Virus record (IMG/VR): IMGVR_UViG_3300008050_000117
Span: 1 to 37,688 of that record
Direction: 5' to 3' (one strand)
Source of the DNA: a virus
Length of the DNA: 37,688 nucleotides
Shown: positions 5,118 to 27,193 of the stretch, in pieces
How positions within the stretch are numbered: position 1 is the stretch's first letter
Layout of the letters: every line of letters begins with the position of its first letter
The notes under the pieces: model-generated
Seen by the model: the letters and a program-made list of their open reading frames with translations, nothing else
Databases searched by the model: none
Told to the model about the DNA's origin: nothing
Made by a program: the position numbers and the translations under genes

Positions 5118-6771
5118 TTTATTTACTACACGTTCGGGCATAAAACTACGTCCCTACCAAGAAGAGTGCATAGAGGCAGTCGCCAAGGCATTCGAGTCGC
5201 ACCAATCATGCCTTATGGTGATGGCAACTGGACTTGGTAAAACCCTGACAGCAGGGGAGGTTCTGCGAAGGAGGGCAGGACGTTCAATGTGGATTGCTCA
5301 TCGCTCAGAGTTAGTTGAGCAAGCAGAAGAAGCCATCGGACGGCTTACTGGAGTAATACCACAAGTAGAGATGGCTGAAAGGTCAGCACAAATTAGACTT
5401 GGCGGTGCCGGATGCATCGTCGGTTCAGTGCAGACCCTGAATGCCAAGCGTAATGGTGTGCCACGGATGGCACGCTTTGACGCTAACTACTTTAACACCC
5501 TTGTCACAGACGAAGCGCACCACGCAGTCGCCAACACATGGACATCTGTTGCTGATTACTTTTGTGAAAACGAAAATCTCAGACATCTTGGGATGACTGC
5601 TACGCCAGACCGAGGTGACGAGGCAGCGCTAGGGCAGATATATGATCACTGTGCGTACAGGTATGACATACAAGACGGAGTAACAGACGGCTGGCTCGTA
5701 CCAATTCTAATTCAACGCGTCATGCTTGACGATATAGACCTGTCTGTAGTTGGCAAGATTGCCGGAGACTTTAATCAAGGCGAACTTGCAGCCACCATGG
5801 AAAAAGATAGCGCAATGTATGGTGTTGCAGAAGTGATATTAGAAGAGGTGGGGAACCGCAAGACTCTAATCTTCACCTCATCTGTGGCACATGCCAAAGG
5901 TCTTGCAGATATATTGAACAACAAGAAACCAGGCATGGCTGCTGAAATAGACGGCAAAACTAATAAGGATGAGCGCAAACTTATAATGGCAGACTTCAAA
6001 GCTGGCAACACTCAGTACCTATGCAACGTAGGGATTGCCACCGAAGGATTTGATGTGCCGGGTATCGAGTGCGTTGCAATCGCACGACCCACCATGAGTC
6101 GCTCATTGTATGCACAGATGGTTGGTCGTGGCACTAGACCGCTTGCGGATACAGTTGACGGTCTTGCGCACGGCGAACAACGCTTGCAATCCATTAGTGA
6201 TTCGTTAAAACCCAACTGCCTTGTCCTTGACTTTGCAGGAAACAGCGGTAAGCACAAACTTGTCTCAGCAGCCGATGTGCTTGGGGGCAACTACAGCGTT
6301 GCGGTGGTAGAACGCGCCAACGAGATTGCACTAAAAGAAAGCAATGTAGATACCCTTGACCTGTTAAAACGTGCACAAGCAGCCGTGTTGCGTGATGCTG
6401 AGGAAGCAAAGCAGCGCAAGATGCGTCGCGCAGTAAATGCAAAAGTAAAATACCGAAAGAGTCAAATGGATCCGTTTGACGTTCTTGACATTGAACCGCC
6501 GATGTGTGATGACGAGTGGAAGAAAGCGAAGCCATTAACACACGGTCAACTCATGTGGCTAGAAAACTCTGGCATGGATACAGAGATGATGACTGTGGCT
6601 GAACAAAGGAAGGTGTTAAACACCATGATTAACAGGAAGAAGCGCAATCTGGCAACACCGAAACAAGTGAGGTTATTAAAGAGGAATAATTACGATACAA
6701 CAGAGATGTCATTCGATGATGCAAGTGCGCTCATCACTCGTCTGGCTAACAACAACTGGAAGCGCATATAG
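5107..6771 (+). CDS. SF2 DEAD/DEAH-box helicase
   Basis: 554 aa from the ATG at 5107, chosen over an in-frame ATG at 5041 because GGGAGG precedes it by about 5 nt and the overlap with the previous gene is then short. Superfamily 2 motifs in order: Q-like RPYQEE, Walker A MATGLGKT (39-46), DEAH (135-138), motif III TATP (164-167), IFTSSVAHA, and motif VI QMVGRGTRP near 338. The last 90 residues hold two related helical units (THGQLMWLENSGMDTEMM and TPKQVRLLKRNNYDTTEMS). This is the only helicase seen and probably unwinds DNA at the fork or during recombination together with the primase, SSB-like and RusA proteins encoded downstream. Confidence 0.88.
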   Translation: MQSDLFTTRSGIKLRPYQEECIEAVAKAFESHQSCLMVMATGLGKTLTAGEVLRRRAGRSMWIAHRSELVEQAEEAIGRLTGVIPQVEMAERSAQIRLGGAGCIVGSVQTLNAKRNGVPRMARFDANYFNTLVTDEAHHAVANTWTSVADYFCENENLRHLGMTATPDRGDEAALGQIYDHCAYRYDIQDGVTDGWLVPILIQRVMLDDIDLSVVGKIAGDFNQGELAATMEKDSAMYGVAEVILEEVGNRKTLIFTSSVAHAKGLADILNNKKPGMAAEIDGKTNKDERKLIMADFKAGNTQYLCNVGIATEGFDVPGIECVAIARPTMSRSLYAQMVGRGTRPLADTVDGLAHGEQRLQSISDSLKPNCLVLDFAGNSGKHKLVSAADVLGGNYSVAVVERANEIALKESNVDTLDLLKRAQAAVLRDAEEAKQRKMRRAVNAKVKYRKSQMDPFDVLDIEPPMCDDEWKKAKPLTHGQLMWLENSGMDTEMMTVAEQRKVLNTMINRKKRNLATPKQVRLLKRNNYDTTEMSFDDASALITRLANNNWKRI

Positions 6772-6784
6772 AAAGGACAATAAT

Positions 6785-8092
6785 GTGGATACTACCAAAA
6801 CAACTCATATCAGTCTTTGCAGTGGATACGGAGGAATTGACCTCGGGCTCAGAAGAGTTCTCCCAGATGTGCGAACTATCGCTTATGTGGAGATCGAAGC
6901 CTTCGCTTGCGCGAACTTGGTTGAGAAGATGGAAAGCGAACAACTGGATGCAGCACCTATCTGGACGAACCTTAAGTCCTTCAATGCAAAACCTTTTCAG
7001 GGCAAAGTGGACATACTCTCTGGTGGATTCCCGTGCCAACCATTCAGTCACGCAGGGCAACGCAAGGGTACAGAAGATCCTCGACACCTGTTCCCAGATA
7101 TCGAAAGAATTATCTTGGAGTGTAACCCCAACATCGTTTTCCTCGAAAATGTCGAAGGGATTATTCCGGCAAAGTACCAAGGAGAGACAGACACAAGTGT
7201 TCTCCAGTATGTCTTGGGAAGATTGGAGAAGATGGGTTACAGAGCAGAGGCAGGAGTATTCTCAGCGATTGAGTGCGGGGCGCCTCACCAACGAAAGCGA
7301 GTGTTCATCTGTGGCGTATCCAACGCCAGATGTGACGATGAGGCCACACGAAGGCAATGTAAGGCTATACAGGAAGGCGGTGATGAACGGGCTGCCAAAG
7401 GAAGAAGCGGATGCGATGTTAGGGGCGGATTGCTTCAAGGCGCAGGGTGTTGTTCCGGAGGCGAACTGGCCAACGCCAGACGCAACGAATGTGGGGGACG
7501 GAGTAGCGTGGGAGAAGTCCAAGAGGCTGATGGAGGAGAGACGAGCCAGAGTCAAGGAAGATGTGAAGGAGGGAAAGACAATACAAGGGAGTGGACGGAG
7601 TGCCAACTTGGCGATGAGTGTACAGAAATGGGCAACACCGCAAGTGACGGATGCAACAAGGGGCAACCAAATCCGCAAGCCAGAGGAATTGACGGACGCA
7701 GCCAGGCAGGGGGGTTGCCGGAATCTGCGGGAGGATGTTCAGAACTGGGCGACACCGCAAGCGAGGGACCACAAGGACACACCCGGTGTCTCACTGAAAA
7801 GGAAGAACCCACAAGGAAAGGAGAGGGGAACAAACGGAACACTACCACTGGAGGTATATTCCCAAGCAGACCAGAAGAAGATCAACACCACTGGGAAGCC
7901 CCAAGAACAATCGGAAGTGAAGAAGTTGTCACCGCTATGGGTGGCTCAGCTTATGGGGTTGCCGTCGGCAACATGGTGCTTGCCCATAGGGTGGATTCTC
8001 TCAGACTCCTCGGAAACGGAGTAGTACCAATCGTAGCCGCTAAGGCTTTTATTATACTAATGGCAAGATTAAATAAAGGAAACAAGCCATGA
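6785..8092 (+). CDS. DNA C5-cytosine methyltransferase
   Basis: 435 aa from a GTG at 6785, 7 nt after AAGGA; there is no nearby in-frame ATG with a good ribosome site, and an ATG two bases upstream belongs to another frame. C5-methyltransferase motifs: I SLCSGYGGIDLGL (10-22), IV GGFPCQPFS (catalytic C84), VI FLENVEG (E121), VIII QRKRVF (169-174), and X LRLLGNGVVPIVAAKAF near the C-terminus. Between VIII and X is a low-complexity, Gly-rich variable region with repeated ANAR/GNTAS/GDTAS units, where a target-recognition domain is expected. The +1 frame is also open through most of the gene and reads as a second methyltransferase-type region (separate entry). Likely role: self-protection against host restriction. 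No cognate restriction enzyme is seen. Confidence 0.85.
   Translation: MDTTKTTHISLCSGYGGIDLGLRRVLPDVRTIAYVEIEAFACANLVEKMESEQLDAAPIWTNLKSFNAKPFQGKVDILSGGFPCQPFSHAGQRKGTEDPRHLFPDIERIILECNPNIVFLENVEGIIPAKYQGETDTSVLQYVLGRLEKMGYRAEAGVFSAIECGAPHQRKRVFICGVSNARCDDEATRRQCKAIQEGGDERAAKGRSGCDVRGGLLQGAGCCSGGELANARRNECGGRSSVGEVQEADGGETSQSQGRCEGGKDNTREWTECQLGDECTEMGNTASDGCNKGQPNPQARGIDGRSQAGGLPESAGGCSELGDTASEGPQGHTRCLTEKEEPTRKGEGNKRNTTTGGIFPSRPEEDQHHWEAPRTIGSEEVVTAMGGSAYGVAVGNMVLAHRVDSLRLLGNGVVPIVAAKAFIILMARLNKGNKP
7383..8024 (+). CDS. Overlapping +1 frame resembling a phage methyltransferase C-terminal region
   Basis: This frame, +1 to the methyltransferase, has no stop from 6783 to 8024. From about 7317 it stops looking like a shadow and shows repeats typical of another phage methyltransferase type: YPTPDV, NWPTPDAT, KWATPQVTD and NWATPQARDHKD, ending with LSPLWVAQLMGLP. 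The start given is ATG 7383, with AGGAAGG at 7371-7377 (5-nt spacing), giving 213 aa; ATG 7338 or a +1 ribosomal shift from the main frame near 7310 are alternatives. Both frames carry family-like sequence over the same DNA, so overprinting or a switchable recognition module is possible. Expression is unproven. Confidence 0.4.
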   Translation: MNGLPKEEADAMLGADCFKAQGVVPEANWPTPDATNVGDGVAWEKSKRLMEERRARVKEDVKEGKTIQGSGRSANLAMSVQKWATPQVTDATRGNQIRKPEELTDAARQGGCRNLREDVQNWATPQARDHKDTPGVSLKRKNPQGKERGTNGTLPLEVYSQADQKKINTTGKPQEQSEVKKLSPLWVAQLMGLPSATWCLPIGWILSDSSETE

Positions 8093-22141: not shown

Positions 22142-25100
22142 TTACCTCGGTATCATATTCTCAATGTATTGTTCTTTTTGTATCTTCTCATGTTGCCGGA
22201 TAATATCCTGTATCATTTCTATGTATACGGTGGGCAGACCAAACAGTGCGCCAGAAGATTTGGCGAACGCAAGCCATGTCATCGCACCACCTTCGCCCCT
22301 TGACAGAGCGCCGCTTGTTCGCATGGCCGTTTCGATGGTATCCGTTAACGGCGTTAGCCCCGGTCTATACCCTTCAAAGCCTAGCAGCGGTTTTACTATG
22401 TCAGTAAGTATGCCACCGCCTATGGTCATTCCTGTCGCCTGTGAAATAGCATCGGAAACCATTTCTTTTACATATTCGGTCATCTCTTCTTGTTCTGGTT
22501 GAACAAGCCCTCTGCCTACCGCTAATCCTATCCCTCCCCTTATTCCTGTCTTAATTACCTTTCGCAAAATCGCCACAAAACCAGAACCAATAATTGTTTG
22601 TTCAACCATTTTCCGTAGGTGCATTTCTGCTTCTTTGACGTTTCCTGCCCTGTATGCCCTTCGTGCGCGTGTTATGGCTATACGCTGCATAGCAGTCAAT
22701 TTCCCCGTATATCCACGAAACATAGTAAAGGCAGACACTGCCGGCTCTTGTTTTGCTCTGTTTAGCAGGGCGGGCTGCATGGACGCTTCATAGGTAGGTT
22801 GAGTTTCCACTACTACATCCTCAAAAGTTCTTCTAACCATCTCTCTGAATAGGGGCGAGTTGTGATTCACCTCCATTCCTTTAGACCTAAAAATGTCCTC
22901 TACTTTTAATTCGGCAGCCCTGTAGATTCGCAGAATTGCATGGCGATCTGACTGAGTAATCATACTGAGCCGCTTGCTGCCTTTACCTTGCCGTTTGCCC
23001 GCTATTGTAATACTGCCATGTTTTGTTTGTATGCCTTCGCCAGCCATAAGCATATACGAGTTGGCAATCTGGAAGCGTTCCCAAGCAAGGCCACTGTTTT
23101 CGAGCATCCTTTCTAAACATGCCTGTCTACTTGCCCTGCCCCATTTCCACAATCCCAATTCACGGTTTGCCTGCAACATGAACCTTTGCCCTTTTGCGCC
23201 CATATACGAGGCAGCAGCAATCTCTGATATAGGCTGGTATGCAGGAATAGTTATCTTGCCCCACAGAACCGCATTGACCACATTGTTTCTTGCCTTGCTA
23301 ATCCAATTTCCCAAATCTGAACGATTTCTCACGACAGCAGACGCTTGTTCGATGATTGGCTTGTAGTAGTTTTCTACCAATCCGCCCGCAATAGCACCTG
23401 TTGGCCCCTTCTGGCTCGTTGCAGCAAGGAAGTCAGGACTAGTGGCTATGTCCATTGCCCTCTTGAGGGCGGGCTGAAGATTAGTTAATGTGGTTGTGGC
23501 TCTTAGGTAACGAGTAGTTGCGATAATGCCGTCACCGATATTTATAGATTGTGTGTGTTTTTCTACACGCGCCTTGCCAGCAGACATGTCTACATTATGC
23601 AAAACGGCTTCACTTATCCCAGTGAACTCACTCAAACTGCCAAGGATGCCATCCACACTTTTTGGTGCAACCTCAACATCTTTTTTGCCCCTGCGAACAG
23701 ATCTCATAACATAAGTCCCGCCTTGAATGATGTCGTATCCGTAGTATTCAATACCCCATGCTCGCAATGGTTTGACAATTGTTGGGTGGTTAATTATTTC
23801 AACGAGAATTTCTGCAATTTTGGCTTCCCTTGCAAACTCTCTGCCAACATGTTCCATCAGAGCGGAGTGTTGCTCCTCGCCCCATTCTTTTTCCTTGACA
23901 TGCCCTTTTTCGCCCTCCACTTCAAAGTTAAGTTTATTCTTCCCGCTCAAAAACTTGCTTAGGGTAGAAGCGTCTTTGATTTGCATTAAATAACCAATCA
24001 ATTGTGCGCGTGTAATTGTTCCCGCACCATTAACCTCGATGACATTCTTTCCGCTCTTGCGACCCTTCTTGTTCGCATCGGACACTTCAAACAAATCTTC
24101 AGGTTTCAAATCGTTGGCTTTTAACGTGGCTTCCCATAATCTGTGAGCATTTGCTAGTGCCATGGAAGCATTACTCTGTCCGTTTATGACATCCTTAACC
24201 ATCACATCGTGAGCAATGGTGCCGTTGCTGCCTGTAATATATTCAATAGCGTCTGTTAATCGTGCGTTTGCTTCAATTCCCCAAGAGAATGTTTTGCTTA
24301 TACCAATTAGGTCTTTAGCCCACGGTGCAATATCAGTCACGTTCCCAAGAGCGTCTACTTTAACATCATGTTTCGACAGGTTCCACGTTGCCTGCGTATC
24401 AGCGTTTGTCTCCGCAATTATGCGCTCCTTTTCGTATCTTTCCCTTTCTTTTTGCGCCTTTCTTTTTGCGCTGTTTTGTTTTTTAATACCAGAGGCAAAC
24501 TGTTCCAAGAACGCTACCTGTCTCCCTGTTAGGGCATCAACCCCACCTTTGGTCTGAGACAACGCTCTTACCAGTTCGGCTACAGGGCGCACATGTTCGC
24601 CGCGCATTTCGACATAGGCATCTAACGCTTCATCAATGGTCTTGCCTTTTTCTTGCCCTATTTTCTCTACGTGTTTTGGATCAACTTCCCGAATAATTGC
24701 AGTCAAAACATCATCTAGTACAGGGTCAATTTCTGCCTTCTTGCCACGGACGCGCAGCGCCTTCTTAAGTTTCTTTGTTGCCTCTTTGTGGTATTCGGCG
24801 CGTACCGTTTGAACGGCATCTTTGATTGCTTTTCTTAAAGCCGCATCTGTCTTAAACTCGCCCACCTTTGCGAAGATCGCGTTTTTAACATTTCTGCTTA
24901 AACCCGTACCCGCAAAAACTTCGTGGAAGGTTTTCATTCGCGCTTTTGCTTCTGCTTTCTTATCGCGTTTCTCGCCCCCAACGCGCTCGGCTTCAGACTT
25001 TATGAGTCTGTCTATTATTTTTTTTGCTTTGGCGCGAGTAACGCCCTCCGCCTTTTCTGCTGCGTGCCGCGCTTGGGCTTGCTCCCTTGTTTCATGTTCT

Positions 25101-27193
25101 GCAATTATCTCTTCTTTGGTTGTTTTTTCTAGTTTTCCTTCTACAACGGCATCCAGTGTTTTTTTGAGTAGTTGCCTTACAGTGGAAAGTTCAACAGGCT
25201 CTTTGGATTTTTCAAGGGCTTGCTTTAGCAACTTGCGCACCTCACGTATCGGTGTACCCTCGCTTACCTTAAGTTTAATCTTTAATTCTTTTATTAACTT
25301 TGTCTTTGCCTTGCTGTTCTTGCCGCTAATGGCGTCTAGGAGTTCGGCGGGTCCCATAGTTTTGTCGCCAACCTCTACCTTTATTTCTACATCACCCTCT
25401 AATTTGCCTTCCCTTCTTTGCGCCTCTACTTGTGATTCCATTTCTCTAATGAGATCAGATACTATTTCTTTTCTGCGGGTTGCCTCTGGCGTTGGTTTGC
25501 CTGCCGCTTCAATCTCCGCCATTTCTTCTCTTAATGCCCGAAGGGTATCCGTGGCTTTATGCCCAACCAGTTCAACCGCGACCATTTGTTTAGTTATCTT
25601 AAACTTTTCGGCTGCGTCCATTGCAGCAACAACCTCTTTAGGAAGTGTATCTTTGATTTTATCTCTGGTTGCTTCTAGGGATTCTCGGAAGAGTCGGTCG
25701 TATTTATCTTCTATCGTCTCATGTTTTTGCTTTTCCTTTGCAGCCTTAACTTCTTCGGCTGTTACAGCAGTAGCATCACGCCCTGAAACCGCTTCGCCCG
25801 CAATATCGTTTACCACTTCACTAAACTTACGAAGCTCCTCAGCGCGTTCGCCAGTGGGCAATTTTGCCAAAGGTTCGCTTATACTTGTAACTTCTGATTC
25901 CACGGTTTCTTTGCCGCTTTTCTTTGCTGCGGCTTGTTTTAGCAGTGATTCGGCTACTTGTTCCAACAGCATATTGCCACCAGACGATTCTTTAATTCTT
26001 AACGCCAAAGCCTCTAAACCACGTGCATCGCTTTTGCCCATAAGGTCGGATATGCGATGTGTGAGGTTTTTCATAGAAGAACCCGCCTTGCCTGCCATCT
26101 CTAGTTCGCGGTACAAATCTTTTAGGGCTATGTTACGTTTTATCCCAAATGGCGCCCCCACAGCTTTGGTTGCAGCGGGAAGCATGGCAATCGTAAGCCC
26201 TTCCCAAGCCCCAGACTGTAAGGTTGCGTAGAAGTTTTCCCACGTATTCTCAAAAGCATCGAATCTCTTCCCCCCAACATAATCTTGAAGCATGCTATTC
26301 ATGCCCTGTTCAGCGGTTCTCAATGTGGCGGCTGTAACCGTAACTCCCGTGATTTGCCCTAATGTATGAGTCGCAGCACGCATACGTCCCGCTTCAATAA
26401 GTTTATTCAACTTTATCGTTTGGTTCAAATCAAAGCCCCTGATTGCCTTGTCCGCCTGCTGCTGTATCTTTTTTATGGGAGCATGTGCCCTGCTAAATAT
26501 CAGGTTCGACACAAGATAGTTTAGGCCAGCAGCAGTAAACGCTTGCGTCTTGTTTCCTGTTTCATCATATACCGCCTTGCCTTTTTCATTTGCGTGCATT
26601 GCAAGGAGGCCTTGAATGCCCGTTGCTCCTGCCCTGGTAGCACCAACAGCCACAAACTGTCCGACACCTATGGCAAGTTCTAGCGACCCTCGCCATAATG
26701 TCCTGAGTAAGCCAATCTCTCCCGTCATGCGCTGCCTTGCCCTGTTAGCCGTATCTTCCCATTCATCTACAACCTCATGAAGTACGGTGGGTTTATGGCT
26801 GAAATGTTCGTCATATAATTTTCTAAACGCGTCTCTCTGTTCTCCAGTGTTTGCGTATCTTTGTGGTGGGATTATTGTGTGTGCAAGCATTTCGCGCATT
26901 GACCATTGCGCACCCTCATACATGACTTCCCCCACCTTGCCAAAACTCACTTCCATATCTGCCCATGCAGCCGTTGCGATGTCCCTTGTATCAGTCAATA
27001 TGTTTCCGCGCGGACTAGCCATTGCCTTGCGCTGTATCTCTTCAATCTCCTCTGCACCCATTTGGGATATAAGAGCGAGTCTTGCGTCTTTATCCTCAAT
27101 GTTTGGACTGTACAGCGTGTTCTGTAAGAACTGTATTCGTATCTGTTCGCGCAACTCTTTAGAGACGCCCTTTTTTGGATCTCTTTCAATCAC
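22142..27193 (-). CDS. Large internal virion protein (T7 gp16-like position)
   Basis: 1683 aa from a GTG at 27193 (AGGAA upstream, overlapping the gp15-like stop). Its place after gp13/14/15-like genes and its size make it the likely gp16-type ejectosome protein. Three zones are visible: an N-terminal part (1-400) with hydrophobic and amphipathic helices (LAIGVGQFVAVGATRAGATG); a Lys/Glu/Ala-rich coiled-coil part (about 430-930) with many KAE/EVK repeats; and a C-terminal part (950-1683) ending with hydrophobic helices (GGIGLAVGRGLVQ, TIGGGILTDIVKPLLG). I see no lytic transglycosylase motif, unlike T7 gp16. It should be injected with the genome and span the envelope. Confidence 0.75.
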   Translation of the reverse strand: MIERDPKKGVSKELREQIRIQFLQNTLYSPNIEDKDARLALISQMGAEEIEEIQRKAMASPRGNILTDTRDIATAAWADMEVSFGKVGEVMYEGAQWSMREMLAHTIIPPQRYANTGEQRDAFRKLYDEHFSHKPTVLHEVVDEWEDTANRARQRMTGEIGLLRTLWRGSLELAIGVGQFVAVGATRAGATGIQGLLAMHANEKGKAVYDETGNKTQAFTAAGLNYLVSNLIFSRAHAPIKKIQQQADKAIRGFDLNQTIKLNKLIEAGRMRAATHTLGQITGVTVTAATLRTAEQGMNSMLQDYVGGKRFDAFENTWENFYATLQSGAWEGLTIAMLPAATKAVGAPFGIKRNIALKDLYRELEMAGKAGSSMKNLTHRISDLMGKSDARGLEALALRIKESSGGNMLLEQVAESLLKQAAAKKSGKETVESEVTSISEPLAKLPTGERAEELRKFSEVVNDIAGEAVSGRDATAVTAEEVKAAKEKQKHETIEDKYDRLFRESLEATRDKIKDTLPKEVVAAMDAAEKFKITKQMVAVELVGHKATDTLRALREEMAEIEAAGKPTPEATRRKEIVSDLIREMESQVEAQRREGKLEGDVEIKVEVGDKTMGPAELLDAISGKNSKAKTKLIKELKIKLKVSEGTPIREVRKLLKQALEKSKEPVELSTVRQLLKKTLDAVVEGKLEKTTKEEIIAEHETREQAQARHAAEKAEGVTRAKAKKIIDRLIKSEAERVGGEKRDKKAEAKARMKTFHEVFAGTGLSRNVKNAIFAKVGEFKTDAALRKAIKDAVQTVRAEYHKEATKKLKKALRVRGKKAEIDPVLDDVLTAIIREVDPKHVEKIGQEKGKTIDEALDAYVEMRGEHVRPVAELVRALSQTKGGVDALTGRQVAFLEQFASGIKKQNSAKRKAQKERERYEKERIIAETNADTQATWNLSKHDVKVDALGNVTDIAPWAKDLIGISKTFSWGIEANARLTDAIEYITGSNGTIAHDVMVKDVINGQSNASMALANAHRLWEATLKANDLKPEDLFEVSDANKKGRKSGKNVIEVNGAGTITRAQLIGYLMQIKDASTLSKFLSGKNKLNFEVEGEKGHVKEKEWGEEQHSALMEHVGREFAREAKIAEILVEIINHPTIVKPLRAWGIEYYGYDIIQGGTYVMRSVRRGKKDVEVAPKSVDGILGSLSEFTGISEAVLHNVDMSAGKARVEKHTQSINIGDGIIATTRYLRATTTLTNLQPALKRAMDIATSPDFLAATSQKGPTGAIAGGLVENYYKPIIEQASAVVRNRSDLGNWISKARNNVVNAVLWGKITIPAYQPISEIAAASYMGAKGQRFMLQANRELGLWKWGRASRQACLERMLENSGLAWERFQIANSYMLMAGEGIQTKHGSITIAGKRQGKGSKRLSMITQSDRHAILRIYRAAELKVEDIFRSKGMEVNHNSPLFREMVRRTFEDVVVETQPTYEASMQPALLNRAKQEPAVSAFTMFRGYTGKLTAMQRIAITRARRAYRAGNVKEAEMHLRKMVEQTIIGSGFVAILRKVIKTGIRGGIGLAVGRGLVQPEQEEMTEYVKEMVSDAISQATGMTIGGGILTDIVKPLLGFEGYRPGLTPLTDTIETAMRTSGALSRGEGGAMTWLAFAKSSGALFGLPTVYIEMIQDIIRQHEKIQKEQYIENMIPR

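Follow-up and report, generated by a model that had tools for sequence, protein, structure and literature searches.

Can a single stretch of DNA encode two almost co-extensive proteins that together make up one enzyme? This question is raised by a DNA methyltransferase locus on a virus contig from IMG/VR, 37,688 nt long and called the window here. The contig carries genes for an Erf-like annealing protein, a helicase, a primase and a terminase, and the locus lies between the helicase, which ends at 6771, and a gene starting at 8089. Elsewhere in the window, a 469-aa open frame at 24822-26231 on the plus strand runs antisense to a 1683-aa ORF at 22142-27193 on the minus strand. An initial annotation of the methyltransferase locus had described a main frame with motifs I, IV, VI, VIII and X at 6785-8092 and a +1 frame open for 1242 nt (6783-8024) with WPTP/WATP repeats, and had offered three explanations: overprinting, a programmed frameshift by which the recognition region is exchanged, or an ancient frameshift. 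Both descriptions hold, with exact coordinates and with motifs and repeats in place. The main frame is referred to as alpha (frame 0, GTG at 6785 to TGA at 8092, 435 aa) and the second as beta (frame +1, ATG at 6783 to TAG at 8024, 413 aa), and their features are as follows.

6772..6777, plus strand: Shine-Dalgarno-like AAAGGA, with spacers of 5 nt to the beta ATG and 7 nt to the alpha GTG (from sequence)
6783..6787, plus strand: nested start codons ATGTG; the ATG (6783) opens the +1 frame and the GTG (6785) opens frame 0
6785..8092, plus strand: alpha subunit CDS, catalytic half of a C5-cytosine DNA methyltransferase (PF00145, phrog_363, AF2 model)
6783..8024, plus strand: beta subunit CDS, with a helical N-terminal part, W(P/A)TP repeats and a motif IX-like segment (phrog_1008, conservation, purifying selection)
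6806..6847, plus strand: motif I HISLCSGYGGIDLG, alpha frame
7022..7048, plus strand: motif IV GGFPCQPFS with the catalytic Cys, alpha frame (invariant in alignments)
7145..7153, plus strand: motif VI (ENV), alpha frame (alignments)
7277..7309, plus strand: motif VIII GAPHQRKRVFI, alpha frame, the final constrained alpha block ahead of the variable region
7310..7919, plus strand: target-recognition-like region, selected mainly in the +1 frame (dN/dS, codon-position rates, alpha pLDDT)
within 7310..7919, plus strand: beta repeats YPTP at 7317, WPTP at 7467, WATP at 7629 and WATP at 7746
7920..7964, plus strand: motif IX-like segment KKLSPLWVAQLMGLP, beta (+1) frame (beta constraint; hhalign to the single-chain enzyme P0004)
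7988..8050, plus strand: motif X RVDSLRLLGNGVVPIVAAKAF, alpha frame; its GNG starts about 16 codons past motif IX, one frame back

Alpha has motifs I, IV (PCQ), VI (ENV), VIII and X, the set that identifies a C5-cytosine DNA methyltransferase, and its motif X core reads RLLGNGVVP. PF00145 matches it with E=7e-39 over residues 8-181 only, ending where the variable region begins, and TIGR00675 scores 117.5 bits (cut-off 100.65). The full complement of motifs, including IX, and a target-recognition domain (TRD) are not found in one polypeptide: motif IX and the repeats lie in the +1 frame. Motif IX generally follows the pattern K/R-x-L-x-P ... L/M-x-G-x-P, which KKLSPLWVAQLMGLP fits, and the +1 frame also holds KLSPLWVAQLMGLP, in keeping with the motif IX that alpha is without. 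Protein searches with each frame separately, a check proposed at the outset, returned database homologues for both, alpha matching phrog_363 and the +1 frame phrog_1008; searches of Pfam, NCBIfam and PDB sequences with beta returned nothing useful.

AF2 models alpha with confidence at motifs I-VIII and in the motif X helix; pLDDT stays below 50 for most of residues 203-406. Matches of this model in the PDB include HhaI, HaeIII and DNMT1 and are largely confined to the large domain. For beta, the N-terminus (residues ~20-80) is modelled confidently as helical, and further helices lie near 145-165 and 243-262; the model is poor in the WPTP region (mean pLDDT 57, pTM 0.32), and a fold search of the PDB with it gave no significant match. 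The models agree with an alpha that would lack the small domain; by themselves they do not establish beta as that domain.

Very probably, the locus encodes a two-subunit m5C methyltransferase of the M.EcoHK31I kind as an overprinted gene pair, with the recognition region in beta. In the mechanism proposed here, a single message, with one ribosome-binding site and a nested pair of starts, would yield two separate, almost co-extensive proteins. Alpha would fold the catalytic domain (motifs I-VIII) and give the C-terminal motif X helix, the approximately 200 residues between them forming a disordered linker. Beta would provide the target-recognition-like region with its WPTP repeats as well as motif IX, both missing from alpha, and its helical N-terminal part probably binds alpha. 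Together they would form one enzyme for methylating phage DNA, most likely as protection from host restriction. We infer these steps, from translation of both frames through assembly and site-specific activity to the anti-restriction role.

The identity of beta emerges from relatives in which the enzyme is a single chain. In these actinophage proteins motifs I-VIII, (L)PTP repeats, motif IX and motif X all lie in one frame. P0004, for example, matches the alpha family phrog_363 from end to end (2e-72), and its residues 194-390, comprising the PTP-IX-X half, match phrog_1008, the beta family (1e-57). Since P0004 matches both, the two protein families are halves of one enzyme. When the beta alignment was compared with P0004 by hhalign, the motif IX segment was aligned (E=2e-6); the direct profile match between beta and the single-chain enzymes is limited to this segment, with the repeats linked via phrog_1008. 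Judged by these alignments, the C-terminus of beta is homologous to the IX region of the single-chain enzymes, and the WPTP repeats are a candidate for the target-recognition part, given their position between motifs VIII and IX and the layout of the single-chain relatives. The two families, both called 'DNA methyltransferase', correspond in phage K1G (locus L179) to two reading frames of one gene, alpha at 1410-2234 matching phrog_363 and beta at 1498-2190 matching phrog_1008.

The same comparison bears on origin. In the window, 47 nt (16 codons less 1 nt) separate the end of LMGLP from the start of GNG, as expected if a single-chain gene had changed frame before the repeats and the change had been compensated between motifs IX and X. 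An ancient frameshift thus fits as an evolutionary origin, with this spacing and the single-frame actinophage homologues in its favor; the direction is left unsettled by a tree of the catalytic core, on which the single-chain form may be ancestral or a re-fusion. Streptomyces phage Darolandstone (L235:222-1916) combines +1-frame LPTP repeats with motifs IX and X in frame 0, a mixed layout that may be intermediate between the single-chain and overlapping forms.

Beta could also be made alongside alpha and act separately from it, for instance as a DNA-binding or regulatory protein, rather than serve as a methyltransferase subunit. Its N-terminal half has no counterpart in the single-chain enzymes, and its fold model is without a match, as such a role would allow. 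However, its C-terminus is homologous to the PTP-IX part of these enzymes, which is exactly the part that alpha is without, and Mycobacterium phage Miramae codes the two halves as separate genes, gp79 and gp78. A separate role for beta is therefore unlikely.

Selection on the two frames supports an overprinted pair of subunits. Independent pairs of relatives were compared, and isolated single-base codon differences were classed as silent or not in each frame and scaled by mutational opportunity. Among alpha-silent changes, dN/dS in the +1 frame is 0.39 (bootstrap interval 0.26-0.61) across codons 1-60 of the catalytic block, 0.27 (0.20-0.40) in the rest of that block, 0.11 (0.06-0.28) in the variable region and 0.08 (0.02-0.28) at motif IX. 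Beyond motif IX the +1 frame is unconstrained within error (0.66, 0.33-2.06), and flanking single-frame genes of the same contigs, which serve as the control, give 1.38 (0.88-2.52). Changes silent in both frames are few, 5-31 per region, but the intervals of the catalytic block and the control still separate. Beta is under purifying selection, including over motifs I-VIII. The codon-level check called for by the initial annotation thus finds constraint on the +1 frame that the flanking control is without, and these conditional counts and the control rule out conservation of beta as a by-product of alpha.

The balance between the frames changes along the gene. Beta constraint is strongest at the motif IX-like segment (0.04-0.08), with 0.11-0.12 across 7310..7919. 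For alpha, dN/dS is low in the two parts of the catalytic block (0.15 and 0.06), rises to 0.61 in the variable and IX regions and falls to 0.18 at motif X, and codon-position rates flip between frames in step with this shift. Because the recognition-like region is selected in the +1 frame while alpha is near-relaxed there, it belongs to beta, and the alpha sequence across it is a near-passenger linker. The ANAR, GNTAS and GDTAS words first described as repeats of the main frame are ruled out as functional alpha repeats; they have no independent standing and are shadows of the WPTP-coding DNA one frame back.

How the second frame is reached is indicated by the front of the gene. The nested ATGTG is found in the same register in 108/140 relatives, the others mostly having both starts within about 10 nt. 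Among 107 relatives with nested starts, a purine-rich Shine-Dalgarno-like stretch lies upstream in 83, and the nested GTG is the sole possible alpha start in 62. The beta N-terminus MWILPKQL is conserved (M, W, I/V, L/I/V, P), and alpha at those bases varies (T/N/S/I etc.). In the Kagunavirus form, the annotated beta start lies 88 nt inside alpha. This pattern of start codons speaks for separate initiation of alpha and beta, and the conserved nested starts and beta N-terminus argue against a frameshift fusion.

In such a fusion, translation would start in alpha and shift by +1 after motif VIII, joining the catalytic domain to the WPTP repeats and motif IX. The polarity is right, the swap point after motif VIII (~7310) is conserved, and the single-chain homologues are a working example of the fused order. 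Yet a full enzyme would need a second, -1 shift, since motif X has returned to frame 0. A frame entered by programmed +1 shifting would be expected to have neither a start of its own nor a selected upstream part; the +1 frame here has a conserved ATG, and a fusion leaves the selection on beta upstream of the swap point (0.27-0.39) unexplained. Programmed frameshifting, put forward as a way to swap the recognition region, is not needed and is very improbable. Overprinting accounts for a locus whose two frames are conserved and selected, each with a start of its own.

The length of the overlap itself is beyond chance. The +1 open run in the window, 412 codons, was reached in 0/20,000 synonymous-codon shuffles of alpha (largest 393) and in 0/5,000 uniform-synonymous draws; the openness of frame +2 is ordinary in the shuffle test (P=0.72). 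In 141 distinct relatives, the +1 open run has a median of 361/377 codons as against 139 in synonymous shuffles, and at least 80% of the frame is open in 139/141 loci; the frame thus stays open in relatives, where the initial annotation would have taken stops as counter-evidence. These relatives also show 2.5 WPTP-like words against 0.24 in shuffles, and the motif IX pattern in 107/141 against 0.06%. An open frame by chance is thereby ruled out, both for the window and for the 141 relatives. That only one of alpha and beta is real, the other being a passenger of base composition or conservation, is scarcely credible: alpha is indeed near-relaxed in the variable region, and over motifs I-VIII the weaker constraint falls on beta, but alpha stands at 0.06-0.18 at I-VIII and X and beta at 0.04-0.12 at the repeats and IX, the +1 run exceeds all 20,000 shuffles, and the flanking genes show no such constraint.

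The overlapping layout is widespread. In 160/179 loci, profiles of four blocks assign motif X to the alpha frame and both motif IX and the N-terminal block of beta to the +1 frame. A scan seeded with alpha alone shows the same layout in 74/80 loci, which argues that it is not merely produced by beta-seeded searching. A beta-seeded scan of a genome collection added 42 bacterial and archaeal loci, with motif IX one frame after the catalytic frame in about 40 of them; they span Bacteroidota, Verrucomicrobiota, Bacillota, Pseudomonadota, Chloroflexota, Myxococcota and archaea. A tblastn search with one beta frame returned 212 phage records. Named phages with both frames include epsilon15, K1G, K1ind1, Bas70, C75C1, ABMM1, Fayden and RcDora; both overlapping CDSs are annotated in K1G, and alpha only in epsilon15 and C75C1.

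Several loci depart from this layout. Motifs IX and X occur together in the +1 frame only in L118, L155, L175, L177, L200 and L228, which are scattered on the tree and in which alpha would stop before motif X, as in M.AquI. In another four (L015, L016, L017 and L018) the beta frame jumps from MWILPKQ to QADQKK...LSPLWVAQLMGLP, an internal deletion having dropped the catalytic block and the repeats and left a short open remnant. A Roseovarius MAG (OX638333.1) has the same overlapping-locus match at five sites of one chromosome (L213-L217), perhaps repeated prophages or an assembly effect.

Two-subunit C5 methyltransferases of related design are known. In M.EcoHK31I, which is specific for YGGCCR and needs both subunits for activity, the subunits measure about 309 and 176 aa and beta is encoded within alpha in another frame. 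The same nesting is found here. M.EcoHK31I (Lee, Kam & Shaw 1995) consists of two polypeptides, alpha with motifs I-VIII, X and a predicted TRD and beta with motif IX, and M.AquI pairs an I-VIII subunit with a second subunit carrying IX-X (PMC3404938). The locus shares with M.EcoHK31I the division into an alpha with I-VIII and X and a beta with IX, a likeness in described motif layout. Unlike the TRD predicted in EcoHK31I alpha, the recognition-like region here is selected in beta and is near-relaxed and predicted disordered in alpha; furthermore, the overlap here is nearly complete from nested starts (413 and 435 aa), and the arrangement has a wide spread.

Other systems share different parts of the design. 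In M.AquI and in Miramae gp79/gp78, the catalytic half and the TRD-IX half are likewise on separate polypeptides, and the second half, gp78, sits in the +1 frame as here; in contrast, their motif X travels with IX on the second subunit whereas here it is in alpha, and the Miramae genes barely overlap. The single-chain actinophage enzymes, such as IrishSherpFalk gp71, Leonard gp5, Kenuha5 gp66 and Estave1 gp75, have the same order of I-VIII, PTP repeats, a RLNAAFxEWMM-type IX and X, but in one frame and one polypeptide, and without the beta N-terminal part. Kagunavirus K1G ORF31/ORF30, both in GenBank, combine a 274-aa alpha (phrog_363) with a 230-aa beta in the +1 frame (phrog_1008); that beta begins inside alpha rather than at nested starts, and the recognition region is shorter. 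A literature search for phage overlapping C5 methyltransferases, in a limited library without REBASE, found none beyond mentions of M.EcoHK31I and M.AquI.

Taken together, we lean slightly towards a widespread, old class of DNA methyltransferases, present in phages, bacteria and archaea, whose two subunits are fully overprinted: a nested ATGTG would give a catalytic and a specificity subunit from one DNA, and the N-terminal half of beta would have been born de novo over the catalytic core. Gene finders list one frame, so for many such genes the annotated protein is without the part expected to set the methylated site. Attempts to predict the motif of such 'orphan' methylases, or to clone them, should fail if they use only alpha. 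If the reading is true, databases list the frames of a single gene as distinct 'DNA methyltransferase' families, and recognition regions frequently go unnoticed. The system can be tested directly in relatives carried by cultured E. coli phages such as K1G and Bas70. The locus is also a strong natural example of a long overlap on one strand, with selection passing visibly from one frame to the other within a gene.
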